Positions 6,394 through 22,427 of a stretch of DNA of 22,461 nt are shown in pieces. Within the stretch, counting starts at the first letter, position 1; each line of letters starts with the position of its first letter. The notes below the pieces were generated by a model. It made no database searches. It had not been told where the DNA came from and saw nothing but the letters and a program-made list of their open reading frames with translations. Origin of the DNA: a virus; IMG/VR virus record IMGVR_UViG_3300043399_001340, positions 1 to 22,461 of that record. The stretch is one strand, 5' to 3'. The position numbers and the translations under genes were made by a program.

Positions 6394-7542
6394 CTAATTT
6401 GTGTTTACAAGTTCCCAGTCCGGAGACTGTGCGTCGTTGACTCCGTTCCACCCAGCTGACTGCGCGTTGTTGATATTTTGCCAGTTCGCCGTCTGGGTGT
6501 CACCAATTTGGCCCCAATCCGGGTTTTGCGAATCATTTATGCCCTGCCAGCTGGCATTCTGCGCGTCGTCAATGGTCTCCCACAACCTGGCACCTATGAC
6601 GGTGTCCAATGCAACCGCGGCTTCTTGGATGGTCGACAGAAACTTGGCAAACGCGGCAGTTGTGTCCTGGACAGCAGCAATGTCCTCTACTGCAATACTC
6701 AGCGTGCCAAGGCTGCTCGTCGTATCCGCACCTGATGCCGCTTCAGAGACTGACGCATAAAAAACGGATACCGCTTCAGCCGCATCAGTGGCCGCCGCAG
6801 ATTCGGAAATATCCGCATATTGAGCGAACGCAGCTTCTGTTACATCCGAAGCGGTAGCTGTTTCGGAAAGGGAGATTTCTGCCGTAAGCCCCGCAGCAAC
6901 AACATCCGTGCCCGTAGCGGTCTCTGAAATTGAGACCGGGTATGTGGGGGTGGAGGAAACCGCATCGGCTCCAGTAGCCGCTTCTGAGACAGCAGACAGC
7001 AGTGAAACCAAAGACGAGACAGCATCAGCGCCCGTAGCGGAATCAGTGACGGCTGCCGCTGGCTTGAACAGCGCGGAAACGTCATCGGTGCCGGTGGCTG
7101 TTTCCGCCACCGCAGCGCCGAACGAACTTACAGCCGCAGTGGTATCCGTCCCCGTGGCTGTCTCCGCCACATTAGAAAGGGGATTAAAGATTGCTGAAAC
7201 TGAATCAGTCCCCGCCGCAGCTTCCGACACAGCGGAAGACGGGTTAAACAGCGCCTCGGTCGTATCCGCACCGGTAGCCGTGTCTGCAACGGCGGACTCC
7301 AACGTGCCAAGCGCGGAAACGTCATCCGCACCGGTAGCCGTGTCTGCAACGGCAGGATTTAAGCTGGCGAGTGTCTCGGTTGTATCAGTACCGGTGGCTG
7401 TTTCGTCAACAGCGGGGGCATAGGCTGCTTGCGCTTCAAGCGCGTCTGTTCCGGTCGCTGTCTCTGCAACATTGCGGTCATAAACCGAATCACCCCATCC
7501 GGCCTGACCCCATGATCCAGAACCCCAGCCGCCTTCGGCCAT
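6394..7542 (-). CDS. Repeat-built fibre-like protein (15 x 20-residue repeats plus 11-residue Trp repeats)
   Basis: A 382-residue protein with three visible parts. Residues 1-19 are Gly/Trp-rich (GGWGSGSWGQAGWG). Residues 20-319 are fifteen consecutive repeats of exactly 20 residues with core V-x-E-T-A-T-G-T-D (for example AVAETATGTDDVSALF). Residues 321-382 are five 11-residue repeats and a partial sixth with pattern W-x-x-I-x-D-x-Q-x-x-x (WQGINDSQNPD, WGQIGDTQTAN). Repeats 1-10 are tight; 11-15 have diverged. Similar ETATGTD repeats occur in phage tail-fibre-like proteins, and a stiff shaft or spacer is the likely role. It starts 9 bases downstream of the preceding stop (TAAGGCGG ribosome site). 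No enzyme domain is visible. Repeat number could vary between relatives. Confidence 0.8.
   Translation of the reverse strand: MAEGGWGSGSWGQAGWGDSVYDRNVAETATGTDALEAQAAYAPAVDETATGTDTTETLASLNPAVADTATGADDVSALGTLESAVADTATGADTTEALFNPSSAVSEAAAGTDSVSAIFNPLSNVAETATGTDTTAAVSSFGAAVAETATGTDDVSALFKPAAAVTDSATGADAVSSLVSLLSAVSEAATGADAVSSTPTYPVSISETATGTDVVAAGLTAEISLSETATASDVTEAAFAQYADISESAAATDAAEAVSVFYASVSEAASGADTTSSLGTLSIAVEDIAAVQDTTAAFAKFLSTIQEAAVALDTVIGARLWETIDDAQNASWQGINDSQNPDWGQIGDTQTANWQNINNAQSAGWNGVNDAQSPDWELVNTN
6397..6582 (-). repeat. 33-bp coding repeats (11-residue W-x-x-I/V-x-D-x-Q units)
   Basis: The 3' end of the repeat-fibre gene encodes units WETIDDAQNAS, WQGINDSQNPD, WGQIGDTQTAN, WQNINNAQSAG, WNGVNDAQSPD and the partial WELVNTN. 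The Trp, the Ile/Val at position 4 and the Gln at position 8 are kept in each full unit. The units are similar at protein level but not identical in DNA. Confidence 0.9.
6586..7485 (-). repeat. Fifteen tandem 60-bp coding repeats
   Basis: Exactly 900 bases encode fifteen 20-residue units with no length variation. Some neighbours remain nearly identical in DNA: positions 7264-7293 and 7324-7353 match over 30 bases at a spacing of exactly one unit. This indicates recent tandem duplication or gene conversion within the array. Confidence 0.93.
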
Positions 7543-10505: not shown

Positions 10506-10919
10506 TTAGTAGATCCGAGCAACACGAGCGCGAGCTGCACCCACGCCACGAACACTGACCTTATCGCCAGCAACCGACTTCTTTACGGGCTCGCTCAGGG
10601 TCTTGCCCTGGGGACCTGCTGTATCAGGGCCGGAAGCGCCAATCTGGCCCTTCTTGGGCACGTTTTTCATGGCCATGCCGCCTTCAGCAAAGCCTTTTTT
10701 GGCAATGCCCTCGCCACGAGTGGCCAGGCCACCTTTTGCGTAGCCCTTGGTTGCGCAACCTTTTTTCATTTCACCACCGCCTTTCCTGAATTTCATGCCC
10801 TTGCTGGACTCACTGTAGTCCTTTGCAACCGACATGGGAATACCCACCTTTTTGGCAAACGCAGGATTGTGCGCCGCCGCGTCCATCAACTTCTTTTGCT
10901 TCTTAGTTACCGCTGGCAT
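10506..10919 (-). CDS. Basic glycine-rich virion-associated protein (candidate)
   Basis: A 137-residue basic protein. The first 40 residues (KKQKKLMDAAAHNPAFAKKV then GIPMSVAKDYSESSKG) resemble the short DUF3008-like phage family. The middle has two copies of a Lys/Gly motif: TKGYAKGGLA (58-67) and KKGFAEGGMA (75-84). The last 14 residues (RGVGAARARVARIY) resemble the tail of the 61-residue protein encoded at 11809-11994. The net positive charge and low complexity could suit DNA or membrane contact inside a virion, which is inference. The start lies 17 bases inside the upstream gene, with AGAGGA at usable spacing. Confidence 0.72.
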   Translation of the reverse strand: MPAVTKKQKKLMDAAAHNPAFAKKVGIPMSVAKDYSESSKGMKFRKGGGEMKKGCATKGYAKGGLATRGEGIAKKGFAEGGMAMKNVPKKGQIGASGPDTAGPQGKTLSEPVKKSVAGDKVSVRGVGAARARVARIY

Positions 10920-11808: not shown

Positions 11809-11994
11809 TCAGTACATCTTGCACTGTTTATTGCGAGCAACGCCCACGCCACGAGGAGCCACAGAAGCCGAAGGCTTTTGGTAGTTCTTGCGAGGAGTCT
11901 GCTCCGGACCGCCCTTGGACATGTCCTGCTTGTTGGCACCGGGCTGCACTTCGCCCTGGTACTGGTCAATCGCCATTTTTGCTGCGCGTCCCAT
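11809..11994 (-). CDS. Small basic protein with RGVG C-terminal motif
   Basis: A 61-residue protein starting MGRAAKMAIDQYQGEVQPGA and ending APRGVGVARNKQCKMY. The start at 11994 is set by TAAGGAG: the upstream stop TAA is part of the ribosome site, with the ATG 6 bases on. A longer frame reaching 12066 would run through the preceding gene and lacks that signal. The final 14 residues parallel those of the 137-residue protein at 10506-10919. No domain is recognised. A small capsid- or DNA-associated protein is possible. Its stop lies 2 bases before the next ATG. Confidence 0.72.
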   Translation of the reverse strand: MGRAAKMAIDQYQGEVQPGANKQDMSKGGPEQTPRKNYQKPSASVAPRGVGVARNKQCKMY

Positions 11995-12004
11995 AGTGGA
12001 CTCC

Positions 12005-12298
12005 TTAGCCGTAGATGAACGTGACCGAAGTGACGTTCGTGAGAGTGAGGTACGGATCTGCTTCAAATAGCACGCCGTCCGAAGGCAGCAGTGCGTACAT
12101 GTAGCCCGTGGCAGTGTTAGCCGGGGTGTCGAACTTCAGTAATTCAGCACCGCCCGTACCACCGTCCTTAAAGGACACCGAGCCAGGGGCATTCCCCAGC
12201 AAAGCGTAGACCGATTTGATGCGAGCACGAGGGGTACCAATGCCTGTGGCACCTGTACCCGTCATCGTTTTCGCTTTTACGTCATATTGAAAGCCCAT
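12005..12298 (-). CDS. Putative small structural protein
   Basis: A 97-residue protein of beta-type composition, with MGFQYDVKAKTMTGTGATGI then RARIKSVYALLGNAPGSVSF, and a C-terminus ending TNVTSVTFIYG. No catalytic motif, signal peptide or membrane segment is seen. The AGGAGG ribosome site (minus strand of 12302-12307) is followed by ATG 3-4 bases later. It lies immediately after the 139-residue structural candidate and before small basic genes, in the head-completion region. A head decoration or joining protein is plausible; I cannot name a family. Confidence 0.72.
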   Translation of the reverse strand: MGFQYDVKAKTMTGTGATGIGTPRARIKSVYALLGNAPGSVSFKDGGTGGAELLKFDTPANTATGYMYALLPSDGVLFEADPYLTLTNVTSVTFIYG

Positions 12299-12881: not shown

Positions 12882-13793
12882 TTAGGCGCCGGGAGAACCG
12901 TAGATGCCACGCGGGTCAGACCAGCCGAAGCTGTAACGCTCGCGGGCCTTGTAGCGCACGTTGCCGGTGTCGAAATCGCCTTCGAAGGCGGTTTTGATCG
13001 GCGAACGCTCGAACATCTTCAGACCGTTGGGGGCGTCGGTAATCAGGAACCAGGCGTCCGAGTCGGTCAGGTAATGGTTGACAGCGTAACCTTCGGGGAT
13101 CAGGCCCATGGACTTGATCGCGCTGATATCGTTGTCAGCCGTAGCGGTGCGCAGGGTGCTCTTCATCAGGCGCTCAGCAGTGAACTGCAGCTCCTTCGGA
13201 ACGATCATCTTGCGAGCGGTCAGAGCGACCTTCAGGCCACGTTCGTCAGTGAACGCTGCGATGTCGATGATGCCCTGTTCGAGAGAGGTCTCGTTCAGGT
13301 CAGCAGGGACCAGCGGACGGTTGGCGAAGTCGGGACCCATGGCGGTGGGGTGCTGTGTCGAGCACAGAGCCACACCGTCGCCACCGGCGTACTGGCCGCC
13401 AGTGAAGGCGTTGTTCAGCACGGAAGCGCCCTTGACCTGCTTGGTGTTAGCCATAGAACGGGCCAGGGCCTTGGTGTAGCGAGCCGACAGGCGGTCGTAG
13501 AGGTTGTCCTCAACGGCTTCTTCAGTCAGCGCGAACGCCATGGCGATGGTCTCGTGCGTATAGCGAGCGGTGTACGATTCAACAGCGTTGTCGTACGCCA
13601 CACCAGCACCTTCAGTCTTCACCGGAGCGGTACTGAAGCCGGTCAGCATGACCTCTTCTTCGAACGCACGGTCAGAGGTCTCGATAGCGAAGATCTCTTC
13701 GTGTTCGTTCTCGTAGCGCTTGTACTCCAAACCGAACAGTGCGTTCAGGCCTGGCTCCAGTTCTTTGACGAGTTGGGAACGGGTAATTGCCAT
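12882..13793 (-). CDS. Major capsid protein (Mu gpT-like, HK97-fold type)
   Basis: A 303-residue protein with the head-subunit layout: AITRSQLVKELEPGLNALFG at the N-terminus, an acidic ENEHEEIFAIETSDRAFEEE stretch, then the marked YTHETIAMAFALTEEAVEDN and LYDRLSARYTKALARSM block, which I associate with Mu gpT-like capsid subunits. ALCSTQHPTAMGPDFAN and the C-terminal RYKARERYSFGWSDPRGIYG are also typical. It has a strong AAGGAG site formed inside the end of the decoration gene, and a strong terminator follows at once. Both fit very high expression. No separate protease gene is visible in the window, so processing, if any, is unresolved. Confidence 0.9.
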   Translation of the reverse strand: MAITRSQLVKELEPGLNALFGLEYKRYENEHEEIFAIETSDRAFEEEVMLTGFSTAPVKTEGAGVAYDNAVESYTARYTHETIAMAFALTEEAVEDNLYDRLSARYTKALARSMANTKQVKGASVLNNAFTGGQYAGGDGVALCSTQHPTAMGPDFANRPLVPADLNETSLEQGIIDIAAFTDERGLKVALTARKMIVPKELQFTAERLMKSTLRTATADNDISAIKSMGLIPEGYAVNHYLTDSDAWFLITDAPNGLKMFERSPIKTAFEGDFDTGNVRYKARERYSFGWSDPRGIYGSPGA

Positions 13794-15846: not shown

Positions 15847-16311
15847 TCACATGTGAAGGATGTCTTCGGGGTTCTGGATCGTTGCCAGCACTTCATCATC
15901 ATTGATGATCCGGATCTCGCCTCCGTCGATCGGCAGGCGGGCGCCTGCGTAACGGCCAAAGACAATCCAGTCACCTTTTTTGCACCACGGACCGGTGGGG
16001 AACTTGCCCTCATCGGCGTAGGCAAGAGGTCCAACAGACAGCACATAGCCGCATACCGTAGCCGCTTGCTCACGCGAGCGGGTCTGGTCTGCCAGCACAA
16101 TGCCACCTTTGGTCTTTTCTGCCCCGCGGTAGGGCAGGATGATGATGCGCCACCCGGTAGGGACGGGCATGCGATCAAGAACGCTTTGCTCGATCTTGGT
16201 GACATCGAGGCTGCCCTCTTTGTCATAAGCATCGTCAAGCTCAGGAACGTGCGCGGCTGCTTCCTCCGCCCACTTTCTCTCCAGTGCAGTCATCTCAGTT
16301 GTTTCCATCAT
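15847..16311 (-). CDS. groES: Phage GroES-type co-chaperonin
   Basis: A 154-residue protein whose residues about 50-150 match Cpn10/GroES: VPTGWRIIILPYRGAEKTKG, GIVLADQT, VCGYVLSVGPLAYADEG, WCKKGDWIVFGRYAGARLPI and INDDEVLATIQNPEDIL. The mobile loop (about 64-76) keeps the GGIVL motif that contacts GroEL. The extra N-terminus (1-49) is acidic and helical, absent from bacterial GroES (about 97 residues). Phage T4 gp31 is a precedent: it replaces GroES for capsid-protein folding. The position between portal and scaffold supports the same job. TAAGGAG from the upstream stop lies 5 bases from the first ATG; a second ATG follows immediately. Confidence 0.92.
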   Translation of the reverse strand: MMETTEMTALERKWAEEAAAHVPELDDAYDKEGSLDVTKIEQSVLDRMPVPTGWRIIILPYRGAEKTKGGIVLADQTRSREQAATVCGYVLSVGPLAYADEGKFPTGPWCKKGDWIVFGRYAGARLPIDGGEIRIINDDEVLATIQNPEDILHM

Positions 16312-16576: not shown

Positions 16577-16720
16577 TTACGTAATCAATACCTTGTTGAA
16601 CGCATCTTTGCGATAAACGTACGTTTTCTTAGGCTCGGGGGCTTTGGTTGCGGCCTTGACTGGCTTTTGAGATTGCTTGGAGGCGGGCGTTTTGGGCGGC
16701 CTGGCTGGCTTGCGTTGCAT
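16577..16720 (-). CDS. Hidden 47-residue basic protein overlapping the portal 3' end
   Basis: A short frame begins at ATG 16720 inside the portal gene (different frame), overlaps it by 92 bases, and extends 52 bases past the portal stop. The product is very basic: MQRKPARPPKTPASKQSQKP, then a Lys/Ala/Pro linker and the end KKTYVYRKDAFNKVLIT. The start has a textbook AAGGAG 6 bases upstream (minus strand of 16727-16732), which the portal gene itself does not require. The part beyond the portal stop still encodes a sensible Tyr-Val-Tyr/Arg-Lys-Asp end. I know no family for it; a DNA-binding or virion-associated peptide is conceivable. The same frame is open much further upstream, but that part looks like noise. 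Confidence 0.72.
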   Translation of the reverse strand: MQRKPARPPKTPASKQSQKPVKAATKAPEPKKTYVYRKDAFNKVLIT

Positions 16721-19043
16721 CTTTGGCTCCTTGTTGCTGCAGTTTCTGGGCATCCAGGGCCAACTTGGCCTGGTCGATTTGTTGATCGCCCTGGACCCGC
16801 ATGCCTTCGAGCTGGATGCGGGCTTTTTCGTTCTGGTCCTTGGCCTGGTCGGCGGCGGAGCGAGCCTGGATCTCCTGCTCCTTGACCTTGACCAGAGGAT
16901 CTTCCTGCGGACCCATGAGCTGCGATTGCAGTTCCTTGGCCTGTTGGTAGTACTCGACCGTCTTGAGCGCAATCATGGCCTCACGCTGCAGGGCAGACAC
17001 GAGCTTGTCGGGGTCGGTGCCGTACTGCTGGAACAGCTCGGCTTCGACCTGCTCTTCGGCCTTGAGGCGGATGTGCTCAAAGATGTGTTTTTGCACGTTG
17101 ACCGCGACCTGCGGCATGCTTGCCAGCATGGGCGACAGGCCAAACAGTATGTGCGACATGATGTGTGCATCGTGCTGCTGGCCAGCAAATGCCTTGAGCG
17201 GCGAGCCGTCCAGGGCCTGAGCGTTTTCGCTGGCAGGGTCCTTGGGCTTGTCGACGTTCTGCGTATTGAGAATCTGGTCGATGTCGCGCACCCCGATTGC
17301 CTCATACATGCGGCGATAGGCCTCGTACATGTTGTGCATCTGCGGGTTGCTCTGAGCGAGCTGCAGCTGTGTCTGCGCCATGGTGATGCGCTGGGCCACA
17401 GAGAAGATGTTGGGATCAGAGACCGGCAGCACATCGATGCGATCGTCAAAGTCCTTCTTCTTGATCGTGCGGCTCTCGCCGGGCACATCGTACGGATACT
17501 CGTCAGGCAGGCTCTCTGCAAAGCCCTCGGCCAGCAGCTTGAATTCGATGCGCTGAGCGTAGTGCAGGCGCTTGTGGATGGACGACATGACCTGGCCGCC
17601 CTTCTCGAGCAGCGCGATCGTGGTGCCCACGGCGGCGTTCTGATTGCTGTCGCCTACCTGCATGTCGGTGACGCTGGCCAGGCGGCGGCCTGCATCGGCG
17701 CAGAAACCGAGCAGCGCGAACAGCGTCTGGCTGGGCTCCTTATACGGCAGTGGCATGAGCGTCTGGGTGAGCTCCTGGCCCCCCGCGTCAATGTCACGGA
17801 ACTCGCCCGGCTGCAGCGGCACGTCATCGTTCATGATACGTGCGCCCTTGGCCTTGAAGCCAGCAGGCAGGTTCACGAGTGTGCCTGCGTCCAGCATCTG
17901 ACGCAAAGCAGAGGTGGCTGCCTGGCTCAGGCCGCCCACCAGGTGCAGGAAGCCTAGGCCATAGGCGCCCAGGCCCTGAACCAGCACGTAGTGCACGTAG
18001 TACTGCTTGCGGCGATAGAGCTCGTTGCCTTCCTTCCAGTTGCGACGCACGCCAACGGTGGCGCCAGAGGTGCGATCGATCGTGATGATGTAGGGCAGCT
18101 TGATGCCTGTGGCTTCGCCGTCGTCATCCTTGTGCTCAAAGCCCATAAGGTCATAGTCGACCTGGAACTCGAGCAGTTCCATCTCCTCGTCGTCCGCATT
18201 GGGCACGATCTTGGTGACGCGGTCGGTTTCCTTCTGGATGATGTTGTTGCCAACGTCAGCCGTGGAGCGCTCCTGGGCGTTGTCGAGGTACTGACCGCGC
18301 AGCACGGCCTTCTTGTACTCGTTGACGGTCATCGGCACGATGTGCGTGATACGAGGGCACTCGCTCATCACGCTGGAGCCGTTGTAGGGGATGTACAGGT
18401 TGTCGGGCAGGATCAGCTTGCTGACCATGCGGCCCTTGTCATAGTCGTAGTAGACCTTCTTGAACGCAGAGCCGCCGTAGCCGACGTAGAACAGGAGCTG
18501 GTCGAAATCGGGCGTGTACTCCTCCATCACCGTGGTGATCTGGTAGTTCATGAAGTCACGCACGCGATCGGCCTGCATCAGCTTCTCACGAGTTTCCTTG
18601 CCCAGCACCTGAGTGCGCACCGGGCCATCAGCGGGCAGCAGCTCCTTGAGCGCCTGGGCCTGGAACTGCACGATGGCTTCGGTGAGCAGCGGATGCGCTG
18701 CCGCGGCAGCGCCCTTGAAGGGCTTGGTGCGCTCATCGAACGTGAAGCCCAGGAGCTTGAGGCCCTTGCCGTACTGCTCTTCCCAGTCTTTGCGCGATGC
18801 CTGATCGGCTTCGAACAAAGGCAGCAGCTCTGAGCTGATTTGCTGGAGGACGCTGGGGTCCAGGACCTCTGCAAGGTTGCAATCGAAGGGGACCTCGTCC
18901 TCTTCTTTTCCCATCTCAACGGTCACGCCGCCTGTCTCGGGATCAAACTCAATTTCGATCTCTGGCAGATCCTCTGTTGCGATATCTTCGATATCGACAT
19001 CGGTATTGCCCGCAGGCAGGTCGTTGTTCTTTTCGATAGGCAT
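16629..19043 (-). CDS. Portal protein
   Basis: An 804-residue portal of the large podovirus type. The first 50 residues are acidic and probably disordered. The core has SELLPLFEADQASRKDWEEQ, KPFKGAAAAAHPLLTEAIVQ and FQAQALKELLPADGPVRTQV, then DFDQLLFYVGYGGSAFKKVY and LILPDNLYIPYNGSSVMSEC, then GFLHLVGGLSQAATSALRQM and NAAVGTTIALLEKGGQVMSS, all in portal-like order. The C-terminal 120 or so residues are a Gln/Ala/Lys-rich coiled coil (QIDQAKLALDAQKLQQQGAK). The dodecameric portal would form the head vertex for DNA entry and exit. TAAGGA from the upstream stop lies 6 bases ahead of the ATG. No terminase gene is present here; it should lie elsewhere or beyond the right edge. Confidence 0.92.
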   Translation of the reverse strand: MPIEKNNDLPAGNTDVDIEDIATEDLPEIEIEFDPETGGVTVEMGKEEDEVPFDCNLAEVLDPSVLQQISSELLPLFEADQASRKDWEEQYGKGLKLLGFTFDERTKPFKGAAAAAHPLLTEAIVQFQAQALKELLPADGPVRTQVLGKETREKLMQADRVRDFMNYQITTVMEEYTPDFDQLLFYVGYGGSAFKKVYYDYDKGRMVSKLILPDNLYIPYNGSSVMSECPRITHIVPMTVNEYKKAVLRGQYLDNAQERSTADVGNNIIQKETDRVTKIVPNADDEEMELLEFQVDYDLMGFEHKDDDGEATGIKLPYIITIDRTSGATVGVRRNWKEGNELYRRKQYYVHYVLVQGLGAYGLGFLHLVGGLSQAATSALRQMLDAGTLVNLPAGFKAKGARIMNDDVPLQPGEFRDIDAGGQELTQTLMPLPYKEPSQTLFALLGFCADAGRRLASVTDMQVGDSNQNAAVGTTIALLEKGGQVMSSIHKRLHYAQRIEFKLLAEGFAESLPDEYPYDVPGESRTIKKKDFDDRIDVLPVSDPNIFSVAQRITMAQTQLQLAQSNPQMHNMYEAYRRMYEAIGVRDIDQILNTQNVDKPKDPASENAQALDGSPLKAFAGQQHDAHIMSHILFGLSPMLASMPQVAVNVQKHIFEHIRLKAEEQVEAELFQQYGTDPDKLVSALQREAMIALKTVEYYQQAKELQSQLMGPQEDPLVKVKEQEIQARSAADQAKDQNEKARIQLEGMRVQGDQQIDQAKLALDAQKLQQQGAKDATQASQAAQNARLQAISKASQGRNQSPRA
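16727..16732 (-). promoter_or_regulatory. Ribosome binding site inside the portal gene
   Basis: AAGGAG on the minus strand, 6 bases upstream of the ATG at 16720. It decides the start of the hidden 47-codon gene, since no other start in that frame has a comparable signal. Confidence 0.75.
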
Positions 19044-19052
19044 GTCTGTTCC

Positions 19053-22000
19053 TTATTCGCTGAGACCTTGCTTCCACATATCGTACTCGCGGCCCCAATC
19101 CACCATGGTACCTTCTGTGTCGGCGCCTGTTGCGGATCGGCTGTACGAGTTGGGCTTGATGCGGCCCAGGCCCTCGGTTTCATCGATCTTATCCAACAGG
19201 TTGAAGACGTCCGCCTTGTTAGCAGGCTCGGAATTGAAGCGCCCACGAATCTGAGTCACGTCCCACGTTTCCGAGCCAGGTTTCTTGGCCGCTTCGACGG
19301 TGATTGTCGGCATTCCTTGCTTGTCGCGCAAGGAATACACGCGCACCAGGCCATCTTCGAATGCCAGCTTGCCACCATAGGGCAGCCCAGTGTAGCCGGT
19401 GCCGTAACTGTCGCCGCTGGAGTAGCCGCCGACAGAGTGCTTCATGAGCTTGCCCTCAAGCTCCGTGGCCACCGGATCGGTGATCTGCACCCAGTTGCCT
19501 TCAATGCCTGGCGTGACCGGCTTGGTGAACTGCTGGAGCACCGTTGGCGGGATTTTGGCCCCACGGTCCGCCATTTCAATCGCAGTGCGGTAGTCGCGGA
19601 TGGGCGCCAGGGCACGCGTGCCTTCGATCAGGGCTTCTGGGAAGCTCATGCTCTTGAGCTTGTCCACAGGCACCTGTTTGAGCGCATCCACGACATTTTC
19701 AGGGCGCAGCAGGTCCATATTCGGGCTGATGTCGTACATCACCTCGCCCGAGCGCAGTGCGTACTGCACGTTCGACGGCATTGCGGCCTCGTTATTGACC
19801 AGGCGTTGCAGCATGGAGGTGCTGGACGGATATTCCTCAAACTCTGCCCGTGTAAAGCGGTCCACGGACGGCGCATTCTGCGCTTCGGCGGGTACGCCCT
19901 CTGCTGCCATCTTGCTTTTGATGCCTTCGCGCAATTCGCGGCTGCTGGGGCCCAAAACATCTTCTGGAGCAAGGGCCGTGGCCCGCACGCCGGTCATTTC
20001 ATCGTACATCCGCTCGAGTTCCTGCTTGGCCTGCAGGTGCCCACGGGCCTGCGGGAACTTGGCGGCGTCCACCAGGTACGGAGGGATCTTGCTGAGGTCC
20101 CGACCGAACGGATCTATGGCGCGTTCGCGGATTGCGGTGCGCAGCGGGTCATCCGCCGTGCCGTAGACGGTCGTAAAGTACCGCGGAGCCTTGGCCTTGA
20201 TGAATTCAACGAGCTCGTCGGGCGCGGTCTGGTCCCTGGCGGCCACTTTGCGGTAATCCGCCATCAATTCATCGAATTTGGAGATCGGTAGGTGCTCAGA
20301 ACCAGGCGGCGTGACGTACAAAACCGTGCCGCCCTTGGGCTTGACCGCAAAATTGATCGGAGCAGGGGTGTCAAAGCCCGGAGTGAGGCTCTGACCGGCC
20401 AACATGCGCTCATTAAGTGCCGATCCAGTCAGTTTTCCAAGCATTTTGGCCGCCGAACCGACCACCGGAGCGACCTGGGTGGCCGTGCCAGCGTAAAAAC
20501 CCGCCTGCCCCGCCGATTTGATGCCCGCATAGTCCGGATGCATCACCGAAAAGCCCTGCTCATCGGGCGGTGTGCCCAAAAAACCACTCACCGCAGCATA
20601 TGTGCGGGGGTCAGGCAGCGTATTGACGTCCCGCATGGCCGCCAGGCGCCTTGCGGCCTCACCTTGGCGGGCAATTTTGGGGTTGAAAGTGGCCGGTCGG
20701 GTCAAATCTGCCTGTTCGCCGGTCTCCGGAGAGCCATCGGCACGCTTGACGGGCAGTTTGATGCGCACTTCGCGACCGTCACGACCAATGTAGGCGTCGC
20801 CCAACTCATTCATCGCGGCCCGCGGGTCCAAAGTGACCAGGTTTTTGAGCATCCGGCCCGAGACAGTGAGCGCTTTTTCGCCTTTGCCCATCTTTTCGTA
20901 CGCCTCGACGTTGCCCTTGCGGCCTTCGTTGTAGAAATCGTACTTGTCGGTAATCACTGTCTCGCCGGTGGGCGACTTTTCGTAGCTGAACCGGCCCAAG
21001 GTCTGACCAACAGGCTGGAAACCGGGCCCGATTTCCTCACCCCGCGGATAATCCTGATACTGCACCGTCCCCTTTTGGGGGCGCCCGGTCCGCTGAACGG
21101 CTTTGTCGACAGCCTGCTGCATGGCAGCGAGCTCTTCCTGGCTGAAATTACCCTCGGTAATCGGCTCGCGGTTGCCCAGCAGTGTTGAGCCAAAGGTGCG
21201 CACGTCCATCGGCACAATCGACCTCAGCATCTGGGCCGCCGTTGACACCTCACCCCCCTCTGCCAAAAAAGAAGGCGCTTCAGGGAGAGTATCTACAGGG
21301 GCAGCAGGGGTCACAGGAGCTGGGATAAATTTTCCCGTCCTCAGCCGCTCAAGCACCTGGCGGTTGTGCTCCAACGGATCTGATGCCGCCACCACAGGCA
21401 AAACAGGGGTCGCTGGTGCAGAAACCGCTGGTGCAGGTGGCCGGGTAAGGAAAGTTTTCCACCGCTGGAAAAACGAAGACAGCGAAGGGGCAGCGGCTGG
21501 CCGAATAGGAACGAACTGCCCCGACTGTAACCGAGCAAGAACCTGACGGTTATGCTCGTTTGCATCCACCGCACCGCCATCAGCATACATCGTCACCGGC
21601 TCCATGCTGGAGGCAAACGGCGCATCCATGGAACCGACCACCCCACCGCCCGCCAGCATCTGCGGCTGCACCGGCTGCTCCGTGGGAAACGGCGACTTGA
21701 TGCTGATATCGGAGAGACCAGCAAGGGCCGCGGGCCGCGTTCCAGACTCCGCCAGCCACTTCTCCGCAATGCTCGGCTCGTTGTCAATGTCCTTGGAACC
21801 CTTTTCCTCGTCCGTGTCCGAGAGCACCGACAGCGCCAGGGCCGCCTGGTAGCTCGGGCCCAACTCGGACAGCGCCGTCATCCCCGAACGCAGCGCCGGT
21901 TCCATCACCTTCTCGGCCTCCGTCTGAATCGGTGTTTCACGTGAAACAGCAGGCGCTTTGGGCGAGCCGACCTTGCCCTCCAGGCTGGCCATCACCTGAC

Positions 22001-22427
22001 TGACCGTCTTGCCCTGAAGATTCGGATTGGCCTTGATCGCCGCTTTGCCCAGCACACTCTCCATCGGAGCATTGGGGTCAGCAGACAGGAAAGACTTGGC
22101 GCCAGAGGGACCAAAGTAGTGCGCCGCATACACCTCCGAGGCGCTCGGATCGCGGCCCAAGGCACTCTTGAGCTGATTCTGGTTGCTGGCAATGATGTCC
22201 AGCCCCACCCGAATGTTCTCGTCCGGATCAAACTTCTTGCCCGGCTTGCCCCCGTACTGCTTCCACGTGCTGTCCGTCACCTGAAACAAACCACCCGCCG
22301 TCGACGTCTTCGCCTTGGCCGAAGTAGACAGAGCACTCTCCGCCCTGGCTATCTTGAGCGCCAACTCCGGGTCAACACCCTTGTCCTGCGCCGCTGCGCG
22401 AATCTTGTCGATGAGTTCTTGGGCCAT
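19053..22427 (-). CDS. Large SLT transglycosylase fusion, probable ejected virion protein
   Basis: A 1124-residue protein. Residues about 5-115 form an SLT domain with catalytic-type Glu30 (LKIARAESAL), AGGLFQVTDSTWKQYGG (44-60), a DPDENIRVGLDII helix and YAAHYFGPSGA (100-110). Residues about 160-400 are low complexity and hold a duplicated EHNRQVLARLQSGQFVP / EHNRQVLERLRTGKFIP segment (291-307 and 353-369). Three Gly-rich motifs are also there (LAGGGVV, YADGGAV, LAEGGEV). Residues about 630-672 are Ala/Gly-rich and partly hydrophobic. Residues about 975-1080 resemble a PcfJ-type domain: KHSVGGYSSG, VRVYSLRDKQGMPTITVEAA and VTQIRGRFN. The SLT part would open peptidoglycan during DNA entry, like T7 gp16. 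It lies directly upstream of the portal gene; a GAGG site lies 10 bases before the ATG. Confidence 0.85.
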   Translation of the reverse strand: MAQELIDKIRAAAQDKGVDPELALKIARAESALSTSAKAKTSTAGGLFQVTDSTWKQYGGKPGKKFDPDENIRVGLDIIASNQNQLKSALGRDPSASEVYAAHYFGPSGAKSFLSADPNAPMESVLGKAAIKANPNLQGKTVSQVMASLEGKVGSPKAPAVSRETPIQTEAEKVMEPALRSGMTALSELGPSYQAALALSVLSDTDEEKGSKDIDNEPSIAEKWLAESGTRPAALAGLSDISIKSPFPTEQPVQPQMLAGGGVVGSMDAPFASSMEPVTMYADGGAVDANEHNRQVLARLQSGQFVPIRPAAAPSLSSFFQRWKTFLTRPPAPAVSAPATPVLPVVAASDPLEHNRQVLERLRTGKFIPAPVTPAAPVDTLPEAPSFLAEGGEVSTAAQMLRSIVPMDVRTFGSTLLGNREPITEGNFSQEELAAMQQAVDKAVQRTGRPQKGTVQYQDYPRGEEIGPGFQPVGQTLGRFSYEKSPTGETVITDKYDFYNEGRKGNVEAYEKMGKGEKALTVSGRMLKNLVTLDPRAAMNELGDAYIGRDGREVRIKLPVKRADGSPETGEQADLTRPATFNPKIARQGEAARRLAAMRDVNTLPDPRTYAAVSGFLGTPPDEQGFSVMHPDYAGIKSAGQAGFYAGTATQVAPVVGSAAKMLGKLTGSALNERMLAGQSLTPGFDTPAPINFAVKPKGGTVLYVTPPGSEHLPISKFDELMADYRKVAARDQTAPDELVEFIKAKAPRYFTTVYGTADDPLRTAIRERAIDPFGRDLSKIPPYLVDAAKFPQARGHLQAKQELERMYDEMTGVRATALAPEDVLGPSSRELREGIKSKMAAEGVPAEAQNAPSVDRFTRAEFEEYPSSTSMLQRLVNNEAAMPSNVQYALRSGEVMYDISPNMDLLRPENVVDALKQVPVDKLKSMSFPEALIEGTRALAPIRDYRTAIEMADRGAKIPPTVLQQFTKPVTPGIEGNWVQITDPVATELEGKLMKHSVGGYSSGDSYGTGYTGLPYGGKLAFEDGLVRVYSLRDKQGMPTITVEAAKKPGSETWDVTQIRGRFNSEPANKADVFNLLDKIDETEGLGRIKPNSYSRSATGADTEGTMVDWGREYDMWKQGLSE

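Follow-up and report, generated by a model that had tools for sequence, protein, structure and literature searches.

A lytic transglycosylase joined to a divergent PcfJ-like domain in the terL-portal slot of a viral genome: a candidate entry protein

Gene and domain organization

The window, i.e., the whole stretch of DNA that was analyzed, is a virus record of 22,461 bases. At positions 19053..22427 (-) lies a gene encoding a protein of 1124 residues, in which a lytic transglycosylase (SLT) domain is found together with a PcfJ-like C-terminus; these limits, already given by the initial annotation, are correct, the strand is minus, and the stop codon occupies 19053-19055. The SLT domain covers residues 9-95 (22143..22403 (-)) and includes Glu30 (22338..22340 (-)), its predicted catalytic acid. 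Three boxes of the GGxV type are found further along the protein, namely LAGGGVV (residues 258-264, 21636..21656 (-)), YADGGAV (residues 281-287, 21567..21587 (-)), and LAEGGEV (residues 388-394, 21246..21266 (-)). The linker also contains a near-duplicate, EHNRQVLARLQSGQFVP and EHNRQVLERLRTGKFIP, at residues 291-307 and 353-369 (21321-21557 (-)), which is present in the window protein and not in its relative L002.

The last part of the protein, residues 690-1124 (19056..20360 (-)), is a conserved C-terminal module, as indicated by its retention in the SLT-less relatives L003 and L007 and by an AlphaFold2 model. It starts near FAVKPKGG, continues with a helical part, and ends with the PcfJ-like core (residues 968-1084, 19176..19526 (-)), for which a GNAT-like fold is predicted. 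Four landmarks can be distinguished in this core: HSVGGY (residues 997-1002, 19422..19439 (-)), at the position of HCVGxY in the forms carrying a Cys; a 17-residue insertion, DSYGTGYTGLPYGGKLA (residues 1006-1022, 19362..19412 (-)), found after HSVGGY only in the clade carrying a Ser instead; PTITVE (residues 1040-1045, 19293..19310 (-)), at the position of PHxTxE in the phage Cys forms; and QIRGRFN (residues 1059-1065, 19233..19253 (-)), where predicted strand b4 ends.

Directly downstream, after a gap of 9 bases, is the gene for the portal protein (16629..19043 (-); phrog_1216, E=1.6e-40), and the window also encodes a GroES-like co-chaperonin (15847..16311 (-); Cpn10, E=3.3e-11) and the major capsid protein (12882..13793 (-); phrog_371, E=2.6e-23). 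A separate endolysin of the lysozyme type was found by Pfam scan at 957-1436.

The transglycosylase domain

The N-terminal SLT domain with Glu30 reported by the initial annotation is well supported, since residues 9-95 match PF01464 with E=1.4e-11 and 44.4 bits, against a cut-off of 21.3. The first 160 residues also match gp144 of phage phiKZ, whose structure has been solved (3bkh/9xps), with E=2.5e-16 over residues 11-155, and Glu30 is aligned with Glu115 (9xps numbering) of the 260-residue gp144 chain, which we take to be the catalytic residue of that enzyme. The two SLT domains are thus homologous; however, gp144 is an endolysin and has no PcfJ-like domain. A distant similarity (E=8.6e-9) links the SLT domain to phrog_342, an internal virion protein with an endolysin domain. 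Like these proteins of the T7 gp16 type, the window protein is large and begins with a wall enzyme of the kind used at entry, but it differs from them in gene position, in the remainder of the protein, and in its PcfJ module.

Homology of the C-terminus to PcfJ

The three motifs that the initial annotation had read in the C-terminus, EGKLMKHSVGGY (residues 991-1002), YSLRDKQGMPTITVEAA (residues 1031-1047), and QIRGRFN (residues 1059-1065), were all found exactly as given. When the last 160 residues are searched alone, the sole Pfam match is PcfJ (PF14284), with E=0.014 and 15.7 bits, and the curated cut-off of 25 bits is therefore not reached by the window protein. While this low single-sequence score, together with a Ser in place of the Cys, would be in keeping with a convergent or chance run of motifs, such an explanation is very improbable considering the profile comparisons. 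A profile of the Ser clade (n=6) aligned to an independently built profile of PcfJ from plasmids and Enterococcus phages gave an hhalign probability of 96.6 and a score of 68.4, whereas none of 60 column-shuffled profiles exceeded 17.2 and none of the SLT, portal, and TerL profiles exceeded 15.1. With only the window sequence as query, the score against PcfJ was 48.2, its own shuffled controls reaching at most 18.7. As E-values of one-on-one hhalign comparisons run optimistic, homology is argued here from the controls, and a match by chance was rejected because the shuffled profiles score far lower.

Two further observations speak against chance. Relatives with the same SLT-PcfJ architecture and a Cys (L011, L020, and L027) exceed the Pfam cut-off, with 28.0, 28.4, and 30.7 bits, respectively, and carry SLT with E of about 1e-11 to 1e-12; intermediates also form an unbroken series with EGxxMxH, YSLRD, TxE, and QxxG. 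These sequence comparisons show that the C-terminus is genuinely related to PcfJ, although divergent. With PF14284, known from conjugative plasmids of E. faecalis and from Herelleviridae such as Sw5, it shares a homologous core and the motif order EGxxMxH(C)VGxY, YSLRD-like, TxE, and QxxGxxN. It differs from that family in HS instead of HC, in the 17-residue insertion, in its score below the Pfam cut-off, and in that the core is joined to an SLT domain via the long linker and the helical N-terminal part of the module. The fusion of SLT to a PcfJ domain with Ser for Cys, as originally proposed, is thus borne out by hhalign and by its recurrence in relatives, and the structural match on which that proposal had been made to depend was found, as both profile and fold searches retrieve PcfJ-like proteins.

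Predicted fold of the PcfJ-like core

AlphaFold2 models were obtained for residues 690-1124 (20 sequences; pLDDT 89.0, pTM 0.79) and for the compact Cys-form core of the relative L009 (29 sequences; pLDDT 84.6, pTM 0.76). Among the Foldseek matches to the BFVD viral models are proteins named PcfJ-like, with E from 8e-10 to 4e-4; against the PDB, no match has an E below 0.001. Nevertheless, all of the top 50 PDB matches of the L009 core, which are not mutually independent and in which multi-subunit entries were judged by entry and not by chain, are acetyltransferases (or complexes containing one) or GNAT-fold L-PGS, including ESCO1/Eco2, HAT1, MYST enzymes, SpeG, and GNA1. The best of them has E 0.012, a probability of 0.99, and a TM of about 0.44. 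The PDB matches of the window model follow the same trend (ICL2, Eis2, ESCO1, NatD, SpeG, and MprF), with a few unrelated rows.

In the L009 model the elements of the core are ordered b1-a1-a2-b2-b3-b4-a3, which is the order of elements in GNATs. These enzymes bind the CoA pyrophosphate at the b4-a3 junction and have an acyl-CoA binding motif, Q/RxxGxG/A, after b4. The invariant QxxG of the PcfJ-like core is found at the predicted b4-a3 junction. Many Cys forms read QIKGKGN or QIKGKAN at this place, and the window protein QIRGRFN. No acetyltransferase family was matched in Pfam scans, and a sequence profile search of the PDB returned chance-level matches only. Judged from the models, the PcfJ core probably has a GNAT-like fold. 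More tentatively, and with somewhat more doubt than confidence, it can be hypothesized that the PcfJ-like domain is a divergent acyltransferase-like domain of the GNAT fold with a conserved His-Cys motif near its active site, which phages would deliver as cargo, which one lineage would have fused to a wall-cutting enzyme, and in which a sub-clade would have replaced the Cys.

The Ser-for-Cys clade

The PcfJ family is described in Pfam by an HCV motif. Its Cys is absent from the window protein, which reads HSVGGY, and all 7 distinct Ser-form sequences have Ser at this position. The Ser forms comprise L002, L003, L005, L007, and L098, and the Cys forms of the SLT-PcfJ lineage are L011/L012, L020-L025, and L026-L028, further Cys forms being found in other architectures. 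In the phage Cys forms, the P/S with which strand b3 starts is followed by a His in 56 of 58 distinct sequences, a frequency that is biased, like those of the other motifs, as relatives were collected from IMG/VR by conserved peptide patterns and forms without these patterns were missed. Both the Cys and this His are replaced in the Ser forms (7/7 sequences). Among PcfJ sequences from plasmids and Enterococcus phages, Cys is kept in all five examined and the strand-b3 His in one, so that of the two residues the Cys is the more widespread.

In a tree of 53 sequences, which is based on few columns (99) and has some long branches, the Ser forms make up one group with a support of 100/100, placed with Cys forms of the SLT lineage (L011, L020, and L026) at 95/82. 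Since the Ser clade nests beside these Cys forms, the change from Cys to Ser would most simply have happened once, inside a lineage already bearing the fusion. Considering that both the conserved Cys and the near-invariant His are missing, the chemistry of the PcfJ domain may have been altered or lost in this clade. Single-sequence searches of the C-terminus detected no member of the clade in the isolated-phage records searched, and residues 690-1124 have no match in PHROGs.

Domain architectures of the relatives

The combination of SLT and PcfJ can also be found in L002, L011/L012, L020/L021/L025, L027, and L118, the last of these being a full-length Ser form located between terL and portal on a contig assigned to the bin of an Armatimonadetes genome; the fusion is absent from cultured relatives. 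Residues 690-1124, from near FAVKPKGG, can be aligned across relatives, so that conservation extends beyond the PcfJ core. Among the complete members of the close portal group, the only ones devoid of SLT are L003 and L007/L008; these retain the C-terminal module, which in L003 and L007 is located in the terL-portal slot. Wall cutting is therefore not a constant partner of the PcfJ module. The middle of the SLT-PcfJ protein is, by comparison of its relatives, an exchangeable module.

Other domains can be found along these proteins. DUF6973 lies mid-protein in L011 (residues 386-482) and L118 (residues 456-551), where the window protein has another sequence. ART-PolyVal was matched in 3 of the 38 relatives scanned; in L078 it is located C-terminal to PcfJ (residues 1539-1698) in a protein of 1721 residues encoded between terL and portal. 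In L009, L010, L013, L014, and L015, the PcfJ core is followed by arrays resembling leucine-rich repeats, and neither terL nor portal was found nearby. A PADLOC search gave no match, and in the open-access papers found, PcfJ domains in phages are mentioned only incidentally.

The terL-portal slot

In all 30 contigs in which both terL and portal were detected, the PcfJ gene is located between the two, and the site of the SLT-PcfJ gene is this slot and not a tail or ejection cluster. Among phages whose head module is related, Planktothrix phage Pag-Yong1 and Roseobacter phage CRP-901 have nothing in the slot, Caulobacter phage KcrB has only a tRNA there, Pelagibacter phage HTVC023P a 201-residue protein, and 023Pt_psg01 two large proteins lacking Pfam domains. 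Its contents thus vary over L111, L119, L120, L121, L122, and L123 from nothing to a tRNA, a 201-residue protein, two large unknown proteins, PcfJ, or SLT-PcfJ. As the slot is empty or otherwise filled in related phages, it looks like a site for accessory cargo rather than for a core assembly protein, and a conserved and indispensable role in head assembly was rejected because relatives leave it empty.

The slot gene of the metagenome-assembled phage DSL-LC04 (OR003939; WJZ48068.1) has already been annotated as "PcfJ-like protein" (PMC10611076). It occupies the same position between terL and portal, next to a closely related head module (the portal proteins are 62% identical), and shares the GGxV boxes. 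However, in this protein of 825 residues no SLT is detected, and it is a Cys form.

Possible functions of the SLT-PcfJ protein

Large proteins encoded in the late region of phages have been described in which lysozyme domains are combined with ARTs and further effector domains, GNATs being found beside ARTs, and these polyvalent proteins are predicted to be injected (Iyer 2017, PMC5512222). The window protein would resemble them as a large multidomain protein of the late region with a wall enzyme and another predicted enzymatic domain; it differs in that PcfJ is not named among them (Iyer et al., 2017, PMC5512222) and in that its own injection and second activity are inferred. By this logic, and with ART-PolyVal domains matched in some relatives, it is plausible that a second activity would be delivered at entry. 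The SLT-PcfJ protein may thus be a late-expressed, packaged entry protein of the polyvalent style, with SLT acting on the wall and a GNAT-like effector or anchoring module, a reading for which we see evenly balanced chances of being right or wrong. Its gene, an exchangeable piece of cargo in the terminase-portal block, would be expressed late, and the product would be packaged with the virion. During infection, the N-terminal transglycosylase of the gp144 type would open the peptidoglycan, and the C-terminal module of 430 residues, with its divergent PcfJ-like and GNAT-like end, would enter together with it. There, the module might act on, or dock to, a target of the host or of the virion, by acyl transfer or by binding. 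The variation of the slot contents fits such a cargo. What counts against this reading is the weakness of the Foldseek E-values (best 0.012, with TM about 0.44), the lack of the fusion in cultured relatives, the retention of the module without SLT in L003 and L007, a site outside the tail or ejection cluster, and the fact that gp144, the closest solved SLT relative, is named an endolysin; the loss of Cys and His in the Ser clade also argues against a simple conserved catalysis.

A structural or anchoring role stays the main rival, because the second domain of the Ser clade may have changed or lost its chemistry. The PcfJ-like module would then bind the portal or another virion protein, loading or orienting the transglycosylase, and have no host activity of its own. 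While the constant adjacency to the portal gene, the persistence of the module where SLT is gone (L003 and L007), and the retention of other conserved residues in a clade that has neither the Cys of the family nor the His of the phage forms would be consistent with this, the portal and head module are still present in Pag-Yong1, CRP-901, and KcrB, whose slots have neither PcfJ nor SLT. Conjugative plasmids, moreover, encode PcfJ as a stand-alone protein, and phage PcfJ of the leucine-rich-repeat type is encoded away from portal genes, so that this role seems rather unlikely. Alternatively, the protein might remain unpackaged and act late in the infected cell, SLT aiding lysis or wall remodeling and PcfJ acting on host factors, as the location of the gene beside terL, the presence of PcfJ on plasmids, and the endolysin nature of gp144 could suggest. 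However, a role in lysis is made less likely by the endolysin that the window carries separately, and a protein of 1124 residues with a long linker and a partner module of 430 residues is unlike a usual endolysin; we regard this possibility as unlikely.

PcfJ, which has no assigned function, is common both in phages and on the plasmids of Enterococcus, the domain being found in many of the former and in hundreds of the latter. The hypothesis of a GNAT-like fold, together with the key residues (EGxxMxHC, PHxTxE, and QxxG) and a natural Cys-to-Ser clade, makes its function directly testable, and the terL-portal slot with its swappable contents is a place where further phage cargo proteins can be sought.

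GGxV boxes and other minor features

The box [FYML]A.GG.[VIA] is strongly enriched in PcfJ proteins of the terL-portal slot, with 69 copies in 59 PcfJ proteins from terL/portal contigs (47.7 kaa), at least one copy being present in 46 of the 59. The portal and TerL proteins of those contigs have no copy, nor do 13 further PcfJ proteins, and shuffled slot proteins contained one. The box is also found in one of the slot proteins of 023Pt_psg01, as it is in that of DSL-LC04. It is possible that it serves as a packaging or targeting tag. In the window, the SLT-PcfJ protein has three copies and the product of the open reading frame at 10506-10919 (-) has two. The latter and another neighboring small protein, encoded at 11809-12066 (-), have the C-terminal pattern RGVGxAR......Y in common. 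A protein of 382 residues with many repeats of the ETATGTD type, likely fiber-like, is encoded at 6394-7542 (-).
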